Origin: Candidatus Marithrix sp. Canyon 246
GTDB lineage: Bacteria; Pseudomonadota; Gammaproteobacteria; Beggiatoales; Beggiatoaceae
Assembly (NCBI RefSeq): GCF_001723685.1
Contig: NZ_MCBX01000038.1
Coordinates: 186,001 to 250,000 of the forward strand
Direction: 5' to 3'
Length of the DNA stretch: 64,000 nt
Positions within the stretch are counted from its first letter, which is position 1. Every line of letters starts with the position of its first letter. The notes beneath the pieces are model-generated. The model was not told the origin of the DNA and did no database searches. It saw only the letters and a list, made by a program, of their open reading frames with translations. The position numbers were made by a program, and so were the translations under genes. Positions 1,158-48,315 of the stretch are shown here, piece after piece.

Positions 1158-3365
1158 ATGAACTACCAAATCCACAAAAAAGGCCAAAACCTACTACACT
1201 GGCAATTTATAGGAATTATCGGCCTAATAGTACTAATTCTAGGACTAATAAGTAACTTCCTAGCCTACCCAGCCAATAACATAATAACAATATTCGACAA
1301 CCTATCGCGTACCATACAACTATTTATACCCGAACAAGACTTGCTACAAGTTCCAGAAGGAGCATGGTATCTAGCAATTGCCAAATTTTTGGGAACTGTC
1401 GTTGCTTTCATCATAATCGCCCAAGTAATATTTCAAATATTTATCAACCAATACCAAATATGGCGACTACAACACAATAAAAATCATATTGTTATATCAT
1501 GATTTGCAGAATGTGGACAACAAATTGCAATAGCAGCATTAGCCCAAGACAAAAATGTCATTGCAATTGAACTAGAAACCAAACTACAACAACAAGCATT
1601 TATCATGCAAAACAACAATATAAGCCTACTAATAGCCGATCCAACAGACAAAACCACATTATTGCAAGCCGCAGCTCACCAAACCGAGCGCGTGATTTTT
1701 GCCAATAAAAATAACCTCCTAAATATCCAAGGAGTAAATAACTTACGACAAATATTGCAACAACAACCCACAACCACCACCAAATATGCCCATATTCAAA
1801 TAGACGACCCAAACCTAATCGAATCATTAAAAGAAGACCCACAATTCCTAAAATCAGACCAAAGCTTAAAAGTTATAACATTCAATAGACACCGCCTAAC
1901 CGCACGACGTTTATTACTAAGCTACCCCCTATACCAATATGCAGATATGCGGGGACAAGATAGAATCCGAGTAGCCATATTTGGATTTGCTAATAAAGCA
2001 CAACAAATGCTACTCCAACTAGCCAGCTCTAGCTACTACCGAGACTTCAAAGTCCCAGAAATAATAATAATAGACCCCCAAGCCAAACAACGCGGACAAC
2101 AATTTATAAACCGCTACCCCGGCTTGCAAGACCCAGAAATCTGCAAACTTAATTTCATCGACTTTAACATAAAGACACAAACACCAGACGCAGAATTTTT
2201 ACAAACACTTGAAAACCAAGGAAACAGTGCTTACGGTCAAAACCTGACAGCAATCTTATTTTGCCTTGAACAAGACAAGAAAAATATAAACGCCTCCCTA
2301 CGATTGCGAATAAAAACCCAACAAACACGTATAGCACTAGCACCAATATTTGTTGAAATGACACAAGACTTACCAGCCCTATCAATACCCGTAGAAAAAA
2401 CCCCTTATTTTGAGCAAGTGGTTCAACATTTTGGACAACTAGAACAAACATGTAGTTGGCAAGAAATAGTAGAAGCAAGTAGCGACAAACTCGCAAAATT
2501 CATACATAAAGCCTACAACAGCCGCTATGGAAAAGGCACAAAATGGCAAGACTTAACAGAAACCTACCGCGATGCCAATCGGGGAGCGGCAGATCATATA
2601 ACAGTAAAACTAGCCAGCCTAGCCTATTGGATACCAGAAGATCCAAGCAACTGGAGCCAAACAGTAGATTTAACCGAAAACCAAGAATTACTAGCAAAAC
2701 TAGAACACAAGCGTTGGTACGCCGAACGCCGACTAAATGGCTGGCAATACGGAACCACAAGAGATGACAACCGCAAAATCCACCCATGCCTAGTACCATA
2801 CGAGCAACTACCAGAAGATGAAAAACAAAAAGATAGAACCAACATACAAGACTTACAAAACTTCTTCTCATCACAACAGCCCAAACAAGGAGAAAAAGTA
2901 CGTAAAGCGATAACAATAGCCTTACTAGCGACAAAAGAATCACAACTGAATAAAGAATTCATCAAACAACTATTAACAAAACATAATGATTACCATATAA
3001 CATTTATGACAGCCTTACAAAACCCCCTAGAACAGGAATTTGCAAAAATAGCCATTGAAGAAAAGCTAAAATTAATAATACCCCGCCCCTACCCAAACGA
3101 ACAAAAATACCCAGAAGCCGACTGGATAATAGACCTACTACCAGCCGGGAAACAACCAACATCACTAACAACAGAAGAACGAGAAATACAACACCAACGC
3201 GCCATAATTTACCAACTAGAACGCGCAGACATAGTGATAATGGCAGAAGAAAATCAACAATGGATAAAATGGCGACAAGGAGAAGAAACCATACCAACCG
3301 AACTATCATCAATTCCAAGCTCTTTAAATAGAACAATTCCTAGTGAATTGATTATGGTTCACTAA
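1158..3365 (+). pseudogene. TrkA-N/RyR-domain membrane protein interrupted by one in-frame TGA
   Basis: One frame runs from ATG 1158 to 3365 and is broken only by TGA at 1500-1502. The first 114 residues have two membrane segments (near residues 17-37 and 73-95) and end in HIVIS. The frame resumes as FAECGQQIAIAALAQDKNVIAIE, so together they form the start of a TrkA-N (NAD-binding Rossmann) domain. The stop falls where the first glycine of GxGxxG is expected; GGA to TGA is a single change. Further on there is a RyR domain (EHKRWYAERRLNGWQYG, then KIHPCLVPYEQL) and a C-terminal domain of about 140 residues that I cannot assign. Proteins of this layout are annotated as ion-channel-like or NAD-binding RyR proteins. 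Downstream translation could restart at ATG 1605, but that protein would lack the membrane part. Confidence 0.75.
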
Positions 3366-16278: not shown

Positions 16279-17418
16279 TCAATATTCCCAATTACTGGGA
16301 ATCTCTTTTAATGGTAAAACTTCAATTTTTTCATGTATATAATACTTTGTGTTTCCGGGATAGATTACCCATAATTTTTCTAAATTCAAGGTTTTTAGAG
16401 CAGAAAGCATTGATTTTGTTAAAGTTGGTGCATCTGAAAACTTAAATTCACAAGCCCAACTTTTAGCTTGGTGTTGCCAAAATAAATCTACTTCTGCTCC
16501 TGAATGAGTTGCCCAAAAGTAGGCTTGTTAATCAGGTTTTCCAACACTTCTCCACACACAATCCAAAGCAAATCCTTCCCAAGAACTGCCTAATTTGGGA
16601 TGCCTATAAAGTACTTCTGGCGTTTCAATAGCTAATAAGCTGTGAAAAATGCCAGAATCACGAAAATAAAGTTTTGGACGTTTCACCAAGCGTTTACCAA
16701 CATTCACATACCACGGTTGTAGTATTCTTAGCATAAAGGTTCCAACTAGAATATCTATATAATGCCGCACAGTAGTATCAGCAATACCAAATGATCGCCC
16801 TATTTCTGCAAAGTTGATTATATTGCCATGATAATGACTTACCATATGCCAAAATCGTCGTAAAGTCTCGGCTGGAATAGTAATTCCTAATGCTGGAATA
16901 TCGCGTTCCAGAAAGGTTCTAATGTAATCTTCGCGCCATTGATAACTTATAGCATCATCTGCGGCTAAAAATGAAGAAGGCAAGCCTCCTGTGAACCATA
17001 ATTGTTCTATTTGGTCAGAATTAATATCCATTGTTCTCAAACCTAACAGAGTATAGTAAGAAATTCTACCAGCAAGAGTTTCTGAACTTTGCCGAATTAA
17101 ATCTCGTGATGCACTTCCTAAAATGAGGTAATTTTGTTCAGGAATCGTGTCAACTAAATAACGTATTAAGGCAAATAATTCTGGTTTACGCTGAATTTCA
17201 TCTATAATAATCAAACCTTTACAACGTGTCAGTGTCAACTGTGGATTTTGAAATTGAGCTAAATCCATTGGATTTTCAAGGTCAAAATAATGATTAGATT
17301 GAAATTGTCTAGCTAAGGTTGTTTTTCCTGATTGTCTAGGACCTAATAAGGCAGTTACCCTATATGTAGATAGCCTTTTTTTAATATTAGCATAATCAAT
17401 ATCACGTTGAATTATCAT
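16279..17418 (-). pseudogene. DUF4143-type AAA ATPase with a premature TAA
   Basis: The frame from ATG 17418 is clear: P-loop ALLGPRQSGKTTLARQF, Walker B GLIIIDEIQRKPELF, YLILGSASRDLI, then the DUF4143 part with RTFLERDIPALG and KLYFRDSGIFHSLL. It stops with TAA at 16528-16530 after WRSVGKPD, but the same frame continues as QAYFWATHSGAEVDLFWQH.. to a second stop at 16279-16281. That continuation is the normal DUF4143 C-terminus. The expected codon is Glu (GAA), so one G-to-T change explains it. The protein lacks about 83 residues. Confidence 0.85.
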
Positions 17419-17424
17419 CTATTT

Positions 17425-17479
17425 TATACTCATCATTGAAATCTCGGTGATTATAACCGATTTTTCAATGATGAGTATA
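17425..17479. repeat. Hairpin upstream of the ATPase pseudogene
   Basis: 17-bp perfect arms (17425-17441 and 17463-17479, core ACTCATCATTGAAA) enclose a second short stem TCGGT/ACCGA. It lies just upstream of the ATPase start, so it may be its operator or a terminator. Confidence 0.6.
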
Positions 17480-46194: not shown

Positions 46195-47733
46195 TTACTC
46201 AAGCAGCAACGGCTCTCCCCTCAAAGCCTGCAATGCTAACAATGTTTGTTCTCCAATAACCCCATCAGCTTTTAAATTATGTTCAGCTTGAAAAGCAATA
46301 AGCTTGGTTCTTAAAGCATAATCAAACAAAGCTGATCTCGATTCCATATTTAATTGTTTTCTGATCCAAATAACCCCTTGGTGAATCATTCCAACTTTTA
46401 ATATCGGCATAGGTAACATCGGAGGTTGCCATAAAATTAGAAATTGCCCTAGCCATAACTTATTAATTTCATGAATTGGTATTTCATAAGTTCTCTCTGC
46501 AACAACTAAAACAGCAATATCATCAAGTAAGTATTTGACTACTATATGATATTGCATTCCATTTAAAGTTACTAATTCAATTATAGCCGGACGATTTAAA
46601 GAACGTAAATCATCCCATGTACCGATCTTTAAGAAACAAGCTAAACCCTTATTAGCCGCACTTTCACAAGCCTTTTCACCAGCTAATGGTAAATAATCAG
46701 TTCCCCATAAATTAAACAGAGTTCTAAAAGCTGTTTCTGTATTAGTTATATTTAATAAATATTCTAAATTTGATACTGGCTTATTCACCATAGCAGTTGG
46801 CATTATGGGAGCAGAACTAGAAACAGTAACTGGTTTTAACAACCCCCAATTAATAACACCAGCCAATACTAATAAAAAACTACAAACAACTATTAAGACT
46901 TGAGGATTAAATTTTCTAACAGCTTCACCAGTAACCTCTTCTATAGCTTGATAGATAATCTCCGTATTGATTTGATCTTTATTACTTACATAACCGCCTA
47001 ATAAAGCGCGATCACAAAGAATATTAATTAAACGGGGTACACCAGCAGAATAACGATAAATTAATTTAACAGCCGAATCGGAAAATAACTGACGTGAAAC
47101 TACTCCACTAATAGCTAAACGATGATTAATATAAGCTTTAGTGTCTTTTCTGGATAAAGGCAAGAGATGATAACGCGCTGTAATACGCTGTGATAATTGA
47201 CGCAGATTATTACGTTTTAATAACTTCTTTAATTCTGGTTGACCAACCAAAATTATTTGTAATAACTTATGATTGCCAGTTTCTAAATTAGTTAATAACC
47301 TGATTTGTTCTAATGCTTCTGAACTAAGATTTTGAGCCTCATCAAGTATAAGTACAGTACGATGACCAACTCTATCAGCCGTCAACAAATAACTAGTGAG
47401 TTTATCAATAAAATCTTTTTGTTGATACTGTTCCAGACTATAACTAATTCTTAATTCATCAAATAAGGCTGCCAATAATTCTATTGGAGATAGACAAGGA
47501 TTTAGCAATAAAGCTACATCAAAATTGTGGGGTAATTGCTCAATTAAACTACGACATAAAGTAGTTTTACCAGTACCGACTTCACCAGTTAATAATACAA
47601 AACCGGGGCCCTCATTGACACCATATACAAGATGTGCCAAAGCCTCACTATGATTTGTGCTTGAATAAAAATAATGTGGATCTGGTGTTATAGAAAACGG
47701 TGCTGTATTCAGCCCAAAATGTGCTGTGTACAT
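46195..47733 (-). CDS. exeA: ExeA/GspA-type AAA ATPase with peptidoglycan-binding domain
   Basis: 512 residues from ATG 47733 (MYTAHFGLNTAPFSITPDPH). AAA motifs: GEVGTGKTTLCRSL, VLILDEAQNLSSEAL, ITARYHLLPLS. A membrane helix (VLIVVCSFLLVLAGVINWGL) is followed by a periplasmic region and a C-terminal peptidoglycan-binding domain (FQAEHNLKADGVIGEQTLLALQAL). It helps assemble the type II secretin with GspB. An upstream extension would lie in tRNA sequence and is rejected. The start codon is only 7 bases after the tRNA-Leu CCA end, with no ribosome-binding site. Confidence 0.92.
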   Translation of the reverse strand: MYTAHFGLNTAPFSITPDPHYFYSSTNHSEALAHLVYGVNEGPGFVLLTGEVGTGKTTLCRSLIEQLPHNFDVALLLNPCLSPIELLAALFDELRISYSLEQYQQKDFIDKLTSYLLTADRVGHRTVLILDEAQNLSSEALEQIRLLTNLETGNHKLLQIILVGQPELKKLLKRNNLRQLSQRITARYHLLPLSRKDTKAYINHRLAISGVVSRQLFSDSAVKLIYRYSAGVPRLINILCDRALLGGYVSNKDQINTEIIYQAIEEVTGEAVRKFNPQVLIVVCSFLLVLAGVINWGLLKPVTVSSSAPIMPTAMVNKPVSNLEYLLNITNTETAFRTLFNLWGTDYLPLAGEKACESAANKGLACFLKIGTWDDLRSLNRPAIIELVTLNGMQYHIVVKYLLDDIAVLVVAERTYEIPIHEINKLWLGQFLILWQPPMLPMPILKVGMIHQGVIWIRKQLNMESRSALFDYALRTKLIAFQAEHNLKADGVIGEQTLLALQALRGEPLLLE

Positions 47734-47740
47734 ATAAGAA

Positions 47741-48142
47741 TGGTACCTGGGACCGGACTCGAACCGGTACAGTGTTGCCACCGAGGGATTTTCTTACCAA
47801 CTACAGTTTTCACTGCCATATTGATTATTTAATCAACTTGTTTGTGGTCTGGACCATGTCTTTGCCTTTAAATATTAAATACTTAGTCAGGCAGGAGCCG
47901 TATGGCCTCTACACTTTCTCAACTAAATCATAAGAAAGAAATAAAAGGATAGGTTGGGAATGGGGAAAGGGGAATCATTCATGATGTTCCTACCCAATTA
48001 TTTCTTATATAACCTAATCGAGCTTAGCTCGACGTTACCATATTACAGGATTCATCGAATTAGACTCCATTCATCTAAGGATTTCGCCCTAGATGCTCAA
48101 ATTTTTTAAGTCCCTTGCGTCTACCAATTTCGCCACCCAGGC
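47741..48142 (-). tRNA. tRNA-Leu(UAA), split by a group I intron
   Basis: Exon 1 is 48108-48142 (35 nt: GCCTGGG acceptor strand, D-arm GCGAAATTGGTAGACGC, then AAGGGACTT). Exon 2 is 47741-47792 (52 nt: AAAATCCCT, long variable arm, T-arm CCGGTTCGAGTCCGG, acceptor CCCAGGT, A, CCA). Joined, they give an 87-nt tRNA-Leu with a 5-bp anticodon stem AGGGA/TCCCT and loop CTTAAAA, anticodon TAA. The acceptor has one G-U pair at 1-72. CCA is encoded. The gene is last in a Gly-Cys-Leu tRNA cluster. Confidence 0.93.
47793..48107 (-). other. Group I intron in the tRNA-Leu(UAA) anticodon loop
   Basis: 315 nt. It is inserted between U34 and A35 of the anticodon: the 5' exon ends in U and the intron ends in G, as group I introns require. 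Its first bases (AAAAAATTTGAGC) resemble the start of the cyanobacterial trnL intron. A P2-like hairpin is at 48072-48095. P7 can form between GGCCAU (47902-47907) and AUGGUC (47852-47857) in R- and S-like contexts (GUGUAGAGGCCAUACGG and AAGACAUGGUCCAGA). A P9 hairpin is at 47821-47836, and a stem with a GAAA loop at 47804-47815. No protein gene lies inside. Confidence 0.88.
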
Positions 48143-48159
48143 ATATGGTACGTACTAAT

Positions 48160-48230
48160 AGGCTGAAACCGGAATTGAACCGATGTACACGGTTTTGCAA
48201 ACCGCTGCATAACCACTCTGCCATTCAGCC
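48160..48230 (-). tRNA. tRNA-Cys(GCA)
   Basis: Acceptor GGCTGAA/TTCAGCC with discriminator U, anticodon loop TTTGCAAAA in the stem CGGTT/AACCG region, T-arm ATCGGTTCAATTCCGGT. CCA is not encoded (ATT follows), so it must be added by the CCA enzyme, unlike its two neighbours. Confidence 0.92.
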
Positions 48231-48239
48231 ATAGAAATC

Positions 48240-48315
<76 letters not shown>

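Follow-up and report, generated by a model that had tools for sequence, protein, structure and literature searches.

Introduction

The tRNA-Leu(UAA) gene of plastids carries an intron between U34 and A35 (the U34|A35 site), with a P1 helix of CUU:GAG and a group I core. A group I intron in the same tRNA gene of the Pseudomonas isolate D0715 was reportedly described by Vepritskiy et al. in 2002. A 2014 review places tRNA group I introns in cyanobacteria and in alpha- and betaproteobacteria (PMC4033280), and a 2007 paper counts 242 plastid trnL entries, none of them with an ORF (PMC1995217). Closest to the present case is the report on Candidatus Thiomargarita nelsonii Bud S10. That report gives a tRNA-Leu-TAA intron for this bacterium, cites another in Ca. 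Maribeggiatoa, also puts the tRNA-Arg(UCU) intron of Beggiatoaceae in print, and leaves the structure and type of the introns in the interrupted tRNA genes of Bud S10 undetermined (Flood 2016, PMC4853749). Among the records listed in searches of open-licence PMC text, no survey of trnL introns across bacterial phyla was found.

Here we analyse a split tRNA-Leu(UAA) gene in a 64,000-nucleotide stretch of Candidatus Marithrix sp. Canyon 246, the whole of which we call the window. We conclude that the insert is a real group I intron, probably a working one, and ordinary for its family.

A split tRNA-Leu(UAA) gene

On the minus strand of the window, the 5' exon of tRNA-Leu(UAA) occupies positions 48108-48142 (35 nt, starting at the first tRNA base and ending CUU| at U34) and the 3' exon positions 47741-47792 (52 nt from A35, with CCA encoded), both read from the sequence and from ARAGORN run on the joined exons. 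Between them lies the intron, 47793-48107 (-), a run of 315 nt that begins AAAAAA and has G as its final base; its assignment draws on the Rfam model RF00028, on covariation and on an intronless allele in a genus mate. ARAGORN reads the joined exons as a tRNA-Leu(taa) of 87 bases with a score of 120, and these fold into a full tRNA in which CCA is encoded and positions 1 and 72 form a G.U pair, the intron being inserted between U34 and A35. The original prediction had given these exon lengths, the 87-nt tRNA, the 315-nt insert, its site and its final G, and in all of them the sequence and ARAGORN agree with it.

Upstream on the same strand lie tRNA-Cys(GCA) at 48160-48230 (-) and, as the first gene of the cluster, tRNA-Gly(GCC) at 48240-48315 (-), both called by ARAGORN. 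The order Gly-Cys-Leu is also present in the genus mate G001 (locus L055), and tRNA-Cys(GCA) and the split tRNA-Leu probably share one transcript. On the other side the tRNA-Leu gene adjoins a gene for an AAA protein, presumably ExeA-like. Its mechanically called ORF has a GTG start inside the tRNA 3' exon (window 47731-47781, -); the likelier start is the ATG at 47733-47731, 7 nt past the end of the tRNA.

The split gene is not called by ARAGORN on the raw 64-kb window, and the Rfam scan of the window at gathering thresholds missed the intron, which a permissive scan of a short stretch recovered. Default tRNA and Rfam scans can overlook a tRNA gene that is probably essential.

Group I identity and fold

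That the insert is a group I intron in a gammaproteobacterial tRNA-Leu(UAA), as originally predicted, is borne out by RF00028 and by covariation. The RF00028 match covers all 253 model positions, with E = 1.3e-10 in a search of 441 bases and 2.2e-10 across the 3.24-Mb genome, where it is the only RF00028 match listed. Its score of 45.8 bits lies under the Rfam gathering cut-off of 50 bits, which is why the default scan passed it over. Among the 25 intron-bearing genomes of the family, 18 orthologues exceed the cut-off, at 51.4-76.2 bits; five, the window's included, score 36.4-46.1 bits; and G002 and G034 (the latter a fragment only) have no match listed at this locus under the stricter filters used. 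Because the 18 orthologues above the cut-off have the same fold, we take the lower score of the window intron to reflect a limit of the model rather than of group I membership.

Helices P1-P9 were drawn by hand from the window sequence and then counted on an alignment of 26 sequences, namely the window, 17 family relatives and eight other gammaproteobacterial trnL introns; the count thereby took in 18 of the 22 family Leu introns and eight of the 18 other gammaproteobacterial ones. Standard pairs fill 95.7% of 1247 cells, in a structure drawn from one of the aligned rows. Double-sided changes that keep pairing occur at 21 of 48 core pairs (shuffled mean 12.6), 105 cells are changed on both sides (shuffled mean 35) and the covariation score is 0.274 (0.152 shuffled), and none of 500 shuffles, a control that is lenient for related sequences, came as high on any of the three. 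No shuffle was as high on four of the five measures; the remaining one, further pair types (46), was reached by 95 of 500. In controls in which the pairing was slid, the paired share falls to 28-46%, with at most 36 double-change cells. The count of double changes is a safer sign of the fold than the other measures. The pairing of the intron core is not due to chance.

Along the minus strand, P1 (48096-48110) pairs the exon end and intron start, CUU|AA, with the intron's UUGAG, and its U.G wobble stands at the 5' splice site in 26 of 26 sequences. P2 is a weak helix, 79.5% paired in the window's register. The 5' strand of P3, GGAGUC (48063-48068, -), has its partner GGCUCC at 47894-47899, with 100% of cells paired and two of six pairs double-changed, and P4/P5 with J4/5 spans 48028-48059 (-), P4 being paired in 98.9% of cells. 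The 5' strand of P7, GGCCA (47903-47907, -), pairs with UGGUC (47852-47856) and has double changes at three of five pairs; by homology, P7 would be the guanosine-binding helix. P9 and a GAAA-capped hairpin (47796-47848, -) reach near the 3' splice site, the hairpin being 100% paired with all four of its pairs double-changed. Compensatory changes are thus found in P7 and P9 and in this hairpin, and also in P8. Covariation and RF00028 both recover a conserved P3-P8 core with the P7 site and the P3/P7 pseudoknot. All 22 family introns that could be extracted begin with AA, have UUGAG within 45 nt and end in G, although extraction itself required a G before the 3' exon.

The enlarged P6 region (47915-48025, -; about 111 nt) is longer in the window than in most aligned relatives and has a C-rich stretch, and similar C-rich stretches lie in the P6 of two relatives (G018, locus L034, and G026, L033). 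A repeat or MITE was considered here and ruled out, as a search with the 111-nt region hit the genome once, at its own position. The window intron has no ORF of 70 codons or more, counted stop to stop.

Splicing and the reading of UUA codons

The RF00005 search of the genome (34 matches, with 150 of 280 candidates scored) and ARAGORN find leucine tRNAs with the anticodons UAG, CAA and GAG besides the split gene. The assembly has 44 contigs at 98.06% completeness; neither method found a second tRNA-Leu(UAA) in it, and a DNA search found one split copy and zero intact ones. An intact second gene, which the original prediction had named, if this copy were inactive, as evidence against it, did not appear in these searches. 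By the usual decoding rules UUA is read by tRNA-Leu(UAA) alone; ten window ORFs together have 480 leucine codons, and 246 of these are UUA. Since no other gene for this tRNA was found, splicing is probably essential for the host, and a gene left unspliced should be lethal.

We propose that the Gly-Cys-Leu cluster would be transcribed as a unit and that the intron would fold through P1-P9. Guanosine bound in P7 would then attack after U34, at the position marked by the U.G pair of P1, and the freed U34 would attack behind the terminal G, joining U34 to A35 and yielding the sole tRNA that reads UUA. These catalytic steps, like co-transcription and splicing in the cell, are what we infer from knowledge of group I introns.

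There is another explanation for such a locus, namely that the intron is dead, its fold decaying, and the tRNA-Leu(UAA) gene a pseudogene. An RF00028 score under the gathering cut-off and an insert which, at 315 nt, exceeds the length found in most relatives could be read this way. Yet all core helices of the window intron pair, including a P4 pair changed to A-U from G-C, the exons give a full tRNA with CCA, and no other gene for the UUA codon was found. We therefore consider a dead intron extremely improbable.

Distribution within the Beggiatoaceae

The Leu intron is present in 25 of 42 family genomes and the gene is intronless in 14, with three unscored (G030, G057 and G062). Both exons were extracted in 22 of the 25; G060 and G061 were scored from exon and intron matches, and G034 from a fragment at the beginning of a contig that retains the 3' end of the intron. 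Thirteen of the intronless genes were read at sequence level and that of G058 was scored from contiguous matches. The original prediction held a trnL intron to be unusual in this lineage. It is not, because the same intron had already been reported in Beggiatoaceae, and both its frequency here and the same-site introns of further phyla (see below) agree.

The genus mate G001, with a PyrD 91% identical to the window's, has the same tRNA without an intron, at the exact junction. On a PyrD tree of 37 genomes, of which 32 could be scored (21 with the intron, 11 without) and in which 11 of 34 inner branches are starred, the intron state requires at least seven changes. Repeated clean loss within the family is the simplest reading, and gains may have occurred as well. 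The difference from G001 may be either a loss there or a recent gain in the window genome. In the first of our intron trees (described below), the window intron shares a starred group with introns from a clade placed by PyrD beside, not around, the genus; in the second tree that group is unstarred. The anticodon loop of the intronless tRNA-Leu in G012 (L326) reads CTTTAAA, against CTTAAAA in the genus mate G029, either an altered anticodon or an assembly error.

Same-site introns in other bacteria

We searched more widely with a pattern made of the 5' exon and P1, the P1 guide UUGAG forming part of it; it matched at least 117 loci, many being intact tRNAs or chance matches. Among the matches listed, split tRNA-Leu(UAA) genes with a checked 3' exon occur in Alphaproteobacteria, Gammaproteobacteria, cyanobacteria, Bacteroidota (Arsenicibacter, Larkinella), Acidobacteriota (Bryobacterales, Pyrinomonadaceae) and Chloroflexota (Litorilinea). 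At least five phyla thereby have an intron at the U34|A35 site together with the guide. L104, L120, L158 and L238 gave no acceptable 3' exon. When eight loci from the rarer phyla were scanned, RF00028 matched five (L102, L105, L115, L183 and L185; 38.7-54.2 bits, one above the cut-off) and was absent from L104, L158 and L184. The split-like gene at L184 was dropped, having no RF00028 match up to E 0.01.

Among 369 species genomes of Gammaproteobacteria the pattern matches 20, of which 16 have a tRNA-Leu with P1, 15 of these with the 3' exon seen. The matches in G395, G259, G143 and G155, where no tRNA was found, were taken as chance. The pattern overlooks some carriers of the intron (G141, G166, G167 and G281).

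Other tRNA introns were also met. A putative tRNA-Ile(CAU) with a group I intron before C34 is present at L209, in the genus mate G001 that lacks the Leu intron, and at L221 (G035). For the intron-bearing CAU-anticodon tRNAs of Gammaproteobacteria, ARAGORN gives tRNA-Met(cat), taken here to be tRNA-Ile(CAU). Joined exons reveal tRNA-Arg(CCU) with a group I intron at L214 (G009, in the window's family) and L268 (G197). For three more gammaproteobacterial loci (L249, L253 and L257) the candidate hosts are tRNA-Thr(UGU) and tRNA-Lys(CUU), with ARAGORN alternatives that score equally.

HNH genes in some trnL introns

In three gammaproteobacterial trnL introns, each 688-693 nt long, the P6 region contains an antisense ORF of 154 codons of HNH type, at 2308-2772 (-) in L114, 3344-3808 (+) in L165 and 1607-2071 (-) in L236. 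Pfam HNH models score above cut-off for L165 and below it for the other two, and the top Pfam match of L236 is a zinc-ribbon model, below its own cut-off. Further antisense ORFs of this type lie in the trnL introns L308 and L310, the latter broken.

A search of the 369 Gammaproteobacteria genomes with the HNH protein matches eight. Four trnL introns contain a whole copy, those of G134, G166 and G304 and that of G218, from which the query came; the trnL intron of G281 has a broken copy. An HNH remnant near an intact tRNA-Leu(UAA) in G284 (L311) is perhaps the trace of a lost intron. The matches in G266 and G100 are weak, and no tRNA-Leu(UAA) exon was found there. The four family genomes in the 369-genome sample gave no match to the HNH protein. 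No report of an HNH gene in a trnL intron was found among the records listed in searches of open-licence PMC text, and the antisense HNH genes of some gammaproteobacterial trnL introns are apparently new. Judged from sequence, the HNH enzyme may promote homing of these introns.

Origin of the Beggiatoaceae intron

We built one tree from 103 introns (203 columns), among them 18 alphaproteobacterial and eight cyanobacterial trnL introns, and a second from 92 introns (204 columns). The first left out the duplicates L134, L155, L174, L228-L231, L233, L239 and L245, the near copy L123, L184 and the RF00028 loci of unfixed host; for the second, and for the identity table, 11 of the 103 rows with long branches or long introns were dropped.

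In both trees the window intron is embedded among the Leu and Arg(UCU) introns of the family. The family introns and the Acidobacteriota intron L115 make up one side of a branch (100/88* in the first tree, 100/99 in the second); L115 lies among the family introns in the first tree and outside them in the second, where the family alone has 95/68. The next grouping, of the family, the other gammaproteobacterial trnL introns and L115, has 95/92* in the first tree (56 rows, without the outlier L232) and 98/88* in the second (50 rows). The eight cyanobacterial introns group with the CAU introns, at 99/90* together with further tRNA introns in the first tree and at 100/97 in the second, where long branches meet at the CAU introns and caution is due. 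A clade of Beggiatoaceae and gammaproteobacterial introns with both Acidobacteriota introns is absent from the best tree and is not rejected (p 0.125); with L115 alone, the clade is present in the best second tree.

The mean identity of the window intron is 0.79 to family Leu introns, 0.66 to Arg(UCU), 0.64 to other gammaproteobacterial, 0.60 to Acidobacteriota, 0.59 to Arg(CCU), 0.57 to Bacteroidota, 0.56 to alphaproteobacterial, 0.54 to cyanobacterial and 0.50 to CAU introns; averaged over all family Leu introns, mean identity is 0.67 to gammaproteobacterial and 0.59 to both alphaproteobacterial and cyanobacterial introns. The motif CCAGACCNCAAA, with at most one mismatch, stands on the 5' side of P9 in all but one of the 63 trnL introns from outside the cyanobacteria (the family's 22 Leu introns all included) and in 16 of 16 Arg(UCU) introns. 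None of the eight cyanobacterial introns has it, and all of these have CCAATYCYCAA.

The original prediction pointed to the insertion site of cyanobacterial and plastid trnL introns, which is indeed the one used, the P1 guide UUGAG also being common to both, and suggested a transfer from cyanobacteria. That suggestion is not supported by the trees, which give the family gammaproteobacterial kin. The intron would on this account have reached Beggiatoaceae from a cyanobacterium alongside other genes that the family shares with filamentous cyanobacteria, and earlier work does state that many Beggiatoaceae genes match cyanobacteria best (PMC4914600). Moreover, AU tests leave a clade of Beggiatoaceae and cyanobacterial introns unrejected (p 0.38 for the first set, 0.055 for the second). 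The best trees nevertheless place the cyanobacterial introns with the CAU introns, the window intron is nearer to gammaproteobacterial trnL introns in identity, and the P9 motif separates the family from the cyanobacteria. A direct cyanobacterial donor appears unlikely from these comparisons, and to the scenario as a whole we assign a very low probability.

Alternatively, as the original prediction also allowed, one very old intron, ancestral to all trnL introns, could have been kept at this site since before the phyla parted. That at least five phyla share the site and the guide agrees with this, with the reservation that the pattern used for the search included the guide, and the AU test does not reject a tree with every Leu intron in a single clade (p 0.23). 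Against it, the best first tree does not unite the Leu introns, the intron is patchy in families and genera (the seven or more changes on the PyrD tree), the pattern finds it in 16 of 369 Gammaproteobacteria genomes, and the HNH gene of some introns would be a means of spread. We regard so ancient an origin as improbable.

A related intron in tRNA-Arg(UCU)

In 16 family genomes a group I intron lies after U36 of tRNA-Arg(UCU), between tRNA-Pro(UGG) and tRNA-His(GUG), and short matches hint at it in G026, G059 and G060 too; in the window genome tRNA-Arg(UCU) is intact and free of introns. All 16 form one clade (100/100*), nested inside the family Leu introns in both trees. Forcing the family Leu introns into a clade of their own is worse by 29 and 21 log units and is not rejected (p 0.095 and 0.087). 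The guide of the Arg introns contains GGAC in 16 of 16 and UUGGA in 14, while UUGAG is the Leu guide in 22 of 22, and each fits its own exon, UCU for Arg and CUU for Leu. In what seems the likeliest history, the intron passed once from Leu to Arg and its guide was altered; this probable derivation of the Arg(UCU) intron from the Leu intron is apparently a new reading.

Discussion

Our proposed reading, in which we place high confidence, is that the Gly-Cys-Leu cluster is transcribed, that the intron folds and splices to give the tRNA for UUA, and that outside the family it is most closely related to trnL introns of other Gammaproteobacteria and to one from Acidobacteriota. More tentatively, with a weight we would put a little below even, the non-cyanobacterial trnL introns may be a separate lineage that is mobile to this day, moving at a single site among species and phyla with the aid of the antisense HNH enzyme. 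Some gammaproteobacterial copies would have retained the HNH gene, whereas in Beggiatoaceae it would have been lost and the intron would have jumped once to tRNA-Arg(UCU), two nucleotides farther into the anticodon loop, with its guide changing from UUGAG to UUGGA.

It is an old question if trnL introns are relics of great age or travel between genomes, and the wider set bears on it through its presence in at least five phyla, the differences between close relatives, the endonuclease genes and one apparent move to a new tRNA accompanied by a matching guide. Further work would be best spent on the comparison across phyla, on the HNH gene and on the move from Leu to Arg.

Comparison with known systems

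The intron of Bud S10 is the same system, lying in the same gene, at the same site, in the same family and in the same intron clade. Its published bases, 17090-17442, are the span of our matches on G017:C124 (17090-17302 and 17319-17442). It differs from the window intron in sequence and is 267 nt long against the window's 315 nt, in a family to which the window intron has a mean identity of 0.79. The Arg(UCU) intron of Beggiatoaceae is much like the window's Leu intron in P4-P5 and P7-P9 (mean identity 0.66) but is inserted after U36, not U34, and has a guide other than UUGAG. The intron of Pseudomonas isolate D0715 is reportedly, like the window's, a group I intron of trnL in a gammaproteobacterial host. 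The cyanobacterial trnL(UAA) intron has the same U34|A35 site, P1 CUU:GAG and group I core as the window's, but differs in its P9 5' motif, in its mean identity of 0.54 and in its separate place in both trees. Finally, the introns in CAU-anticodon tRNAs of Gammaproteobacteria (in the GTDB sense) are, like the window's, group I introns of the anticodon loop, but they occupy another tRNA and site and have a mean identity of 0.50 to it.
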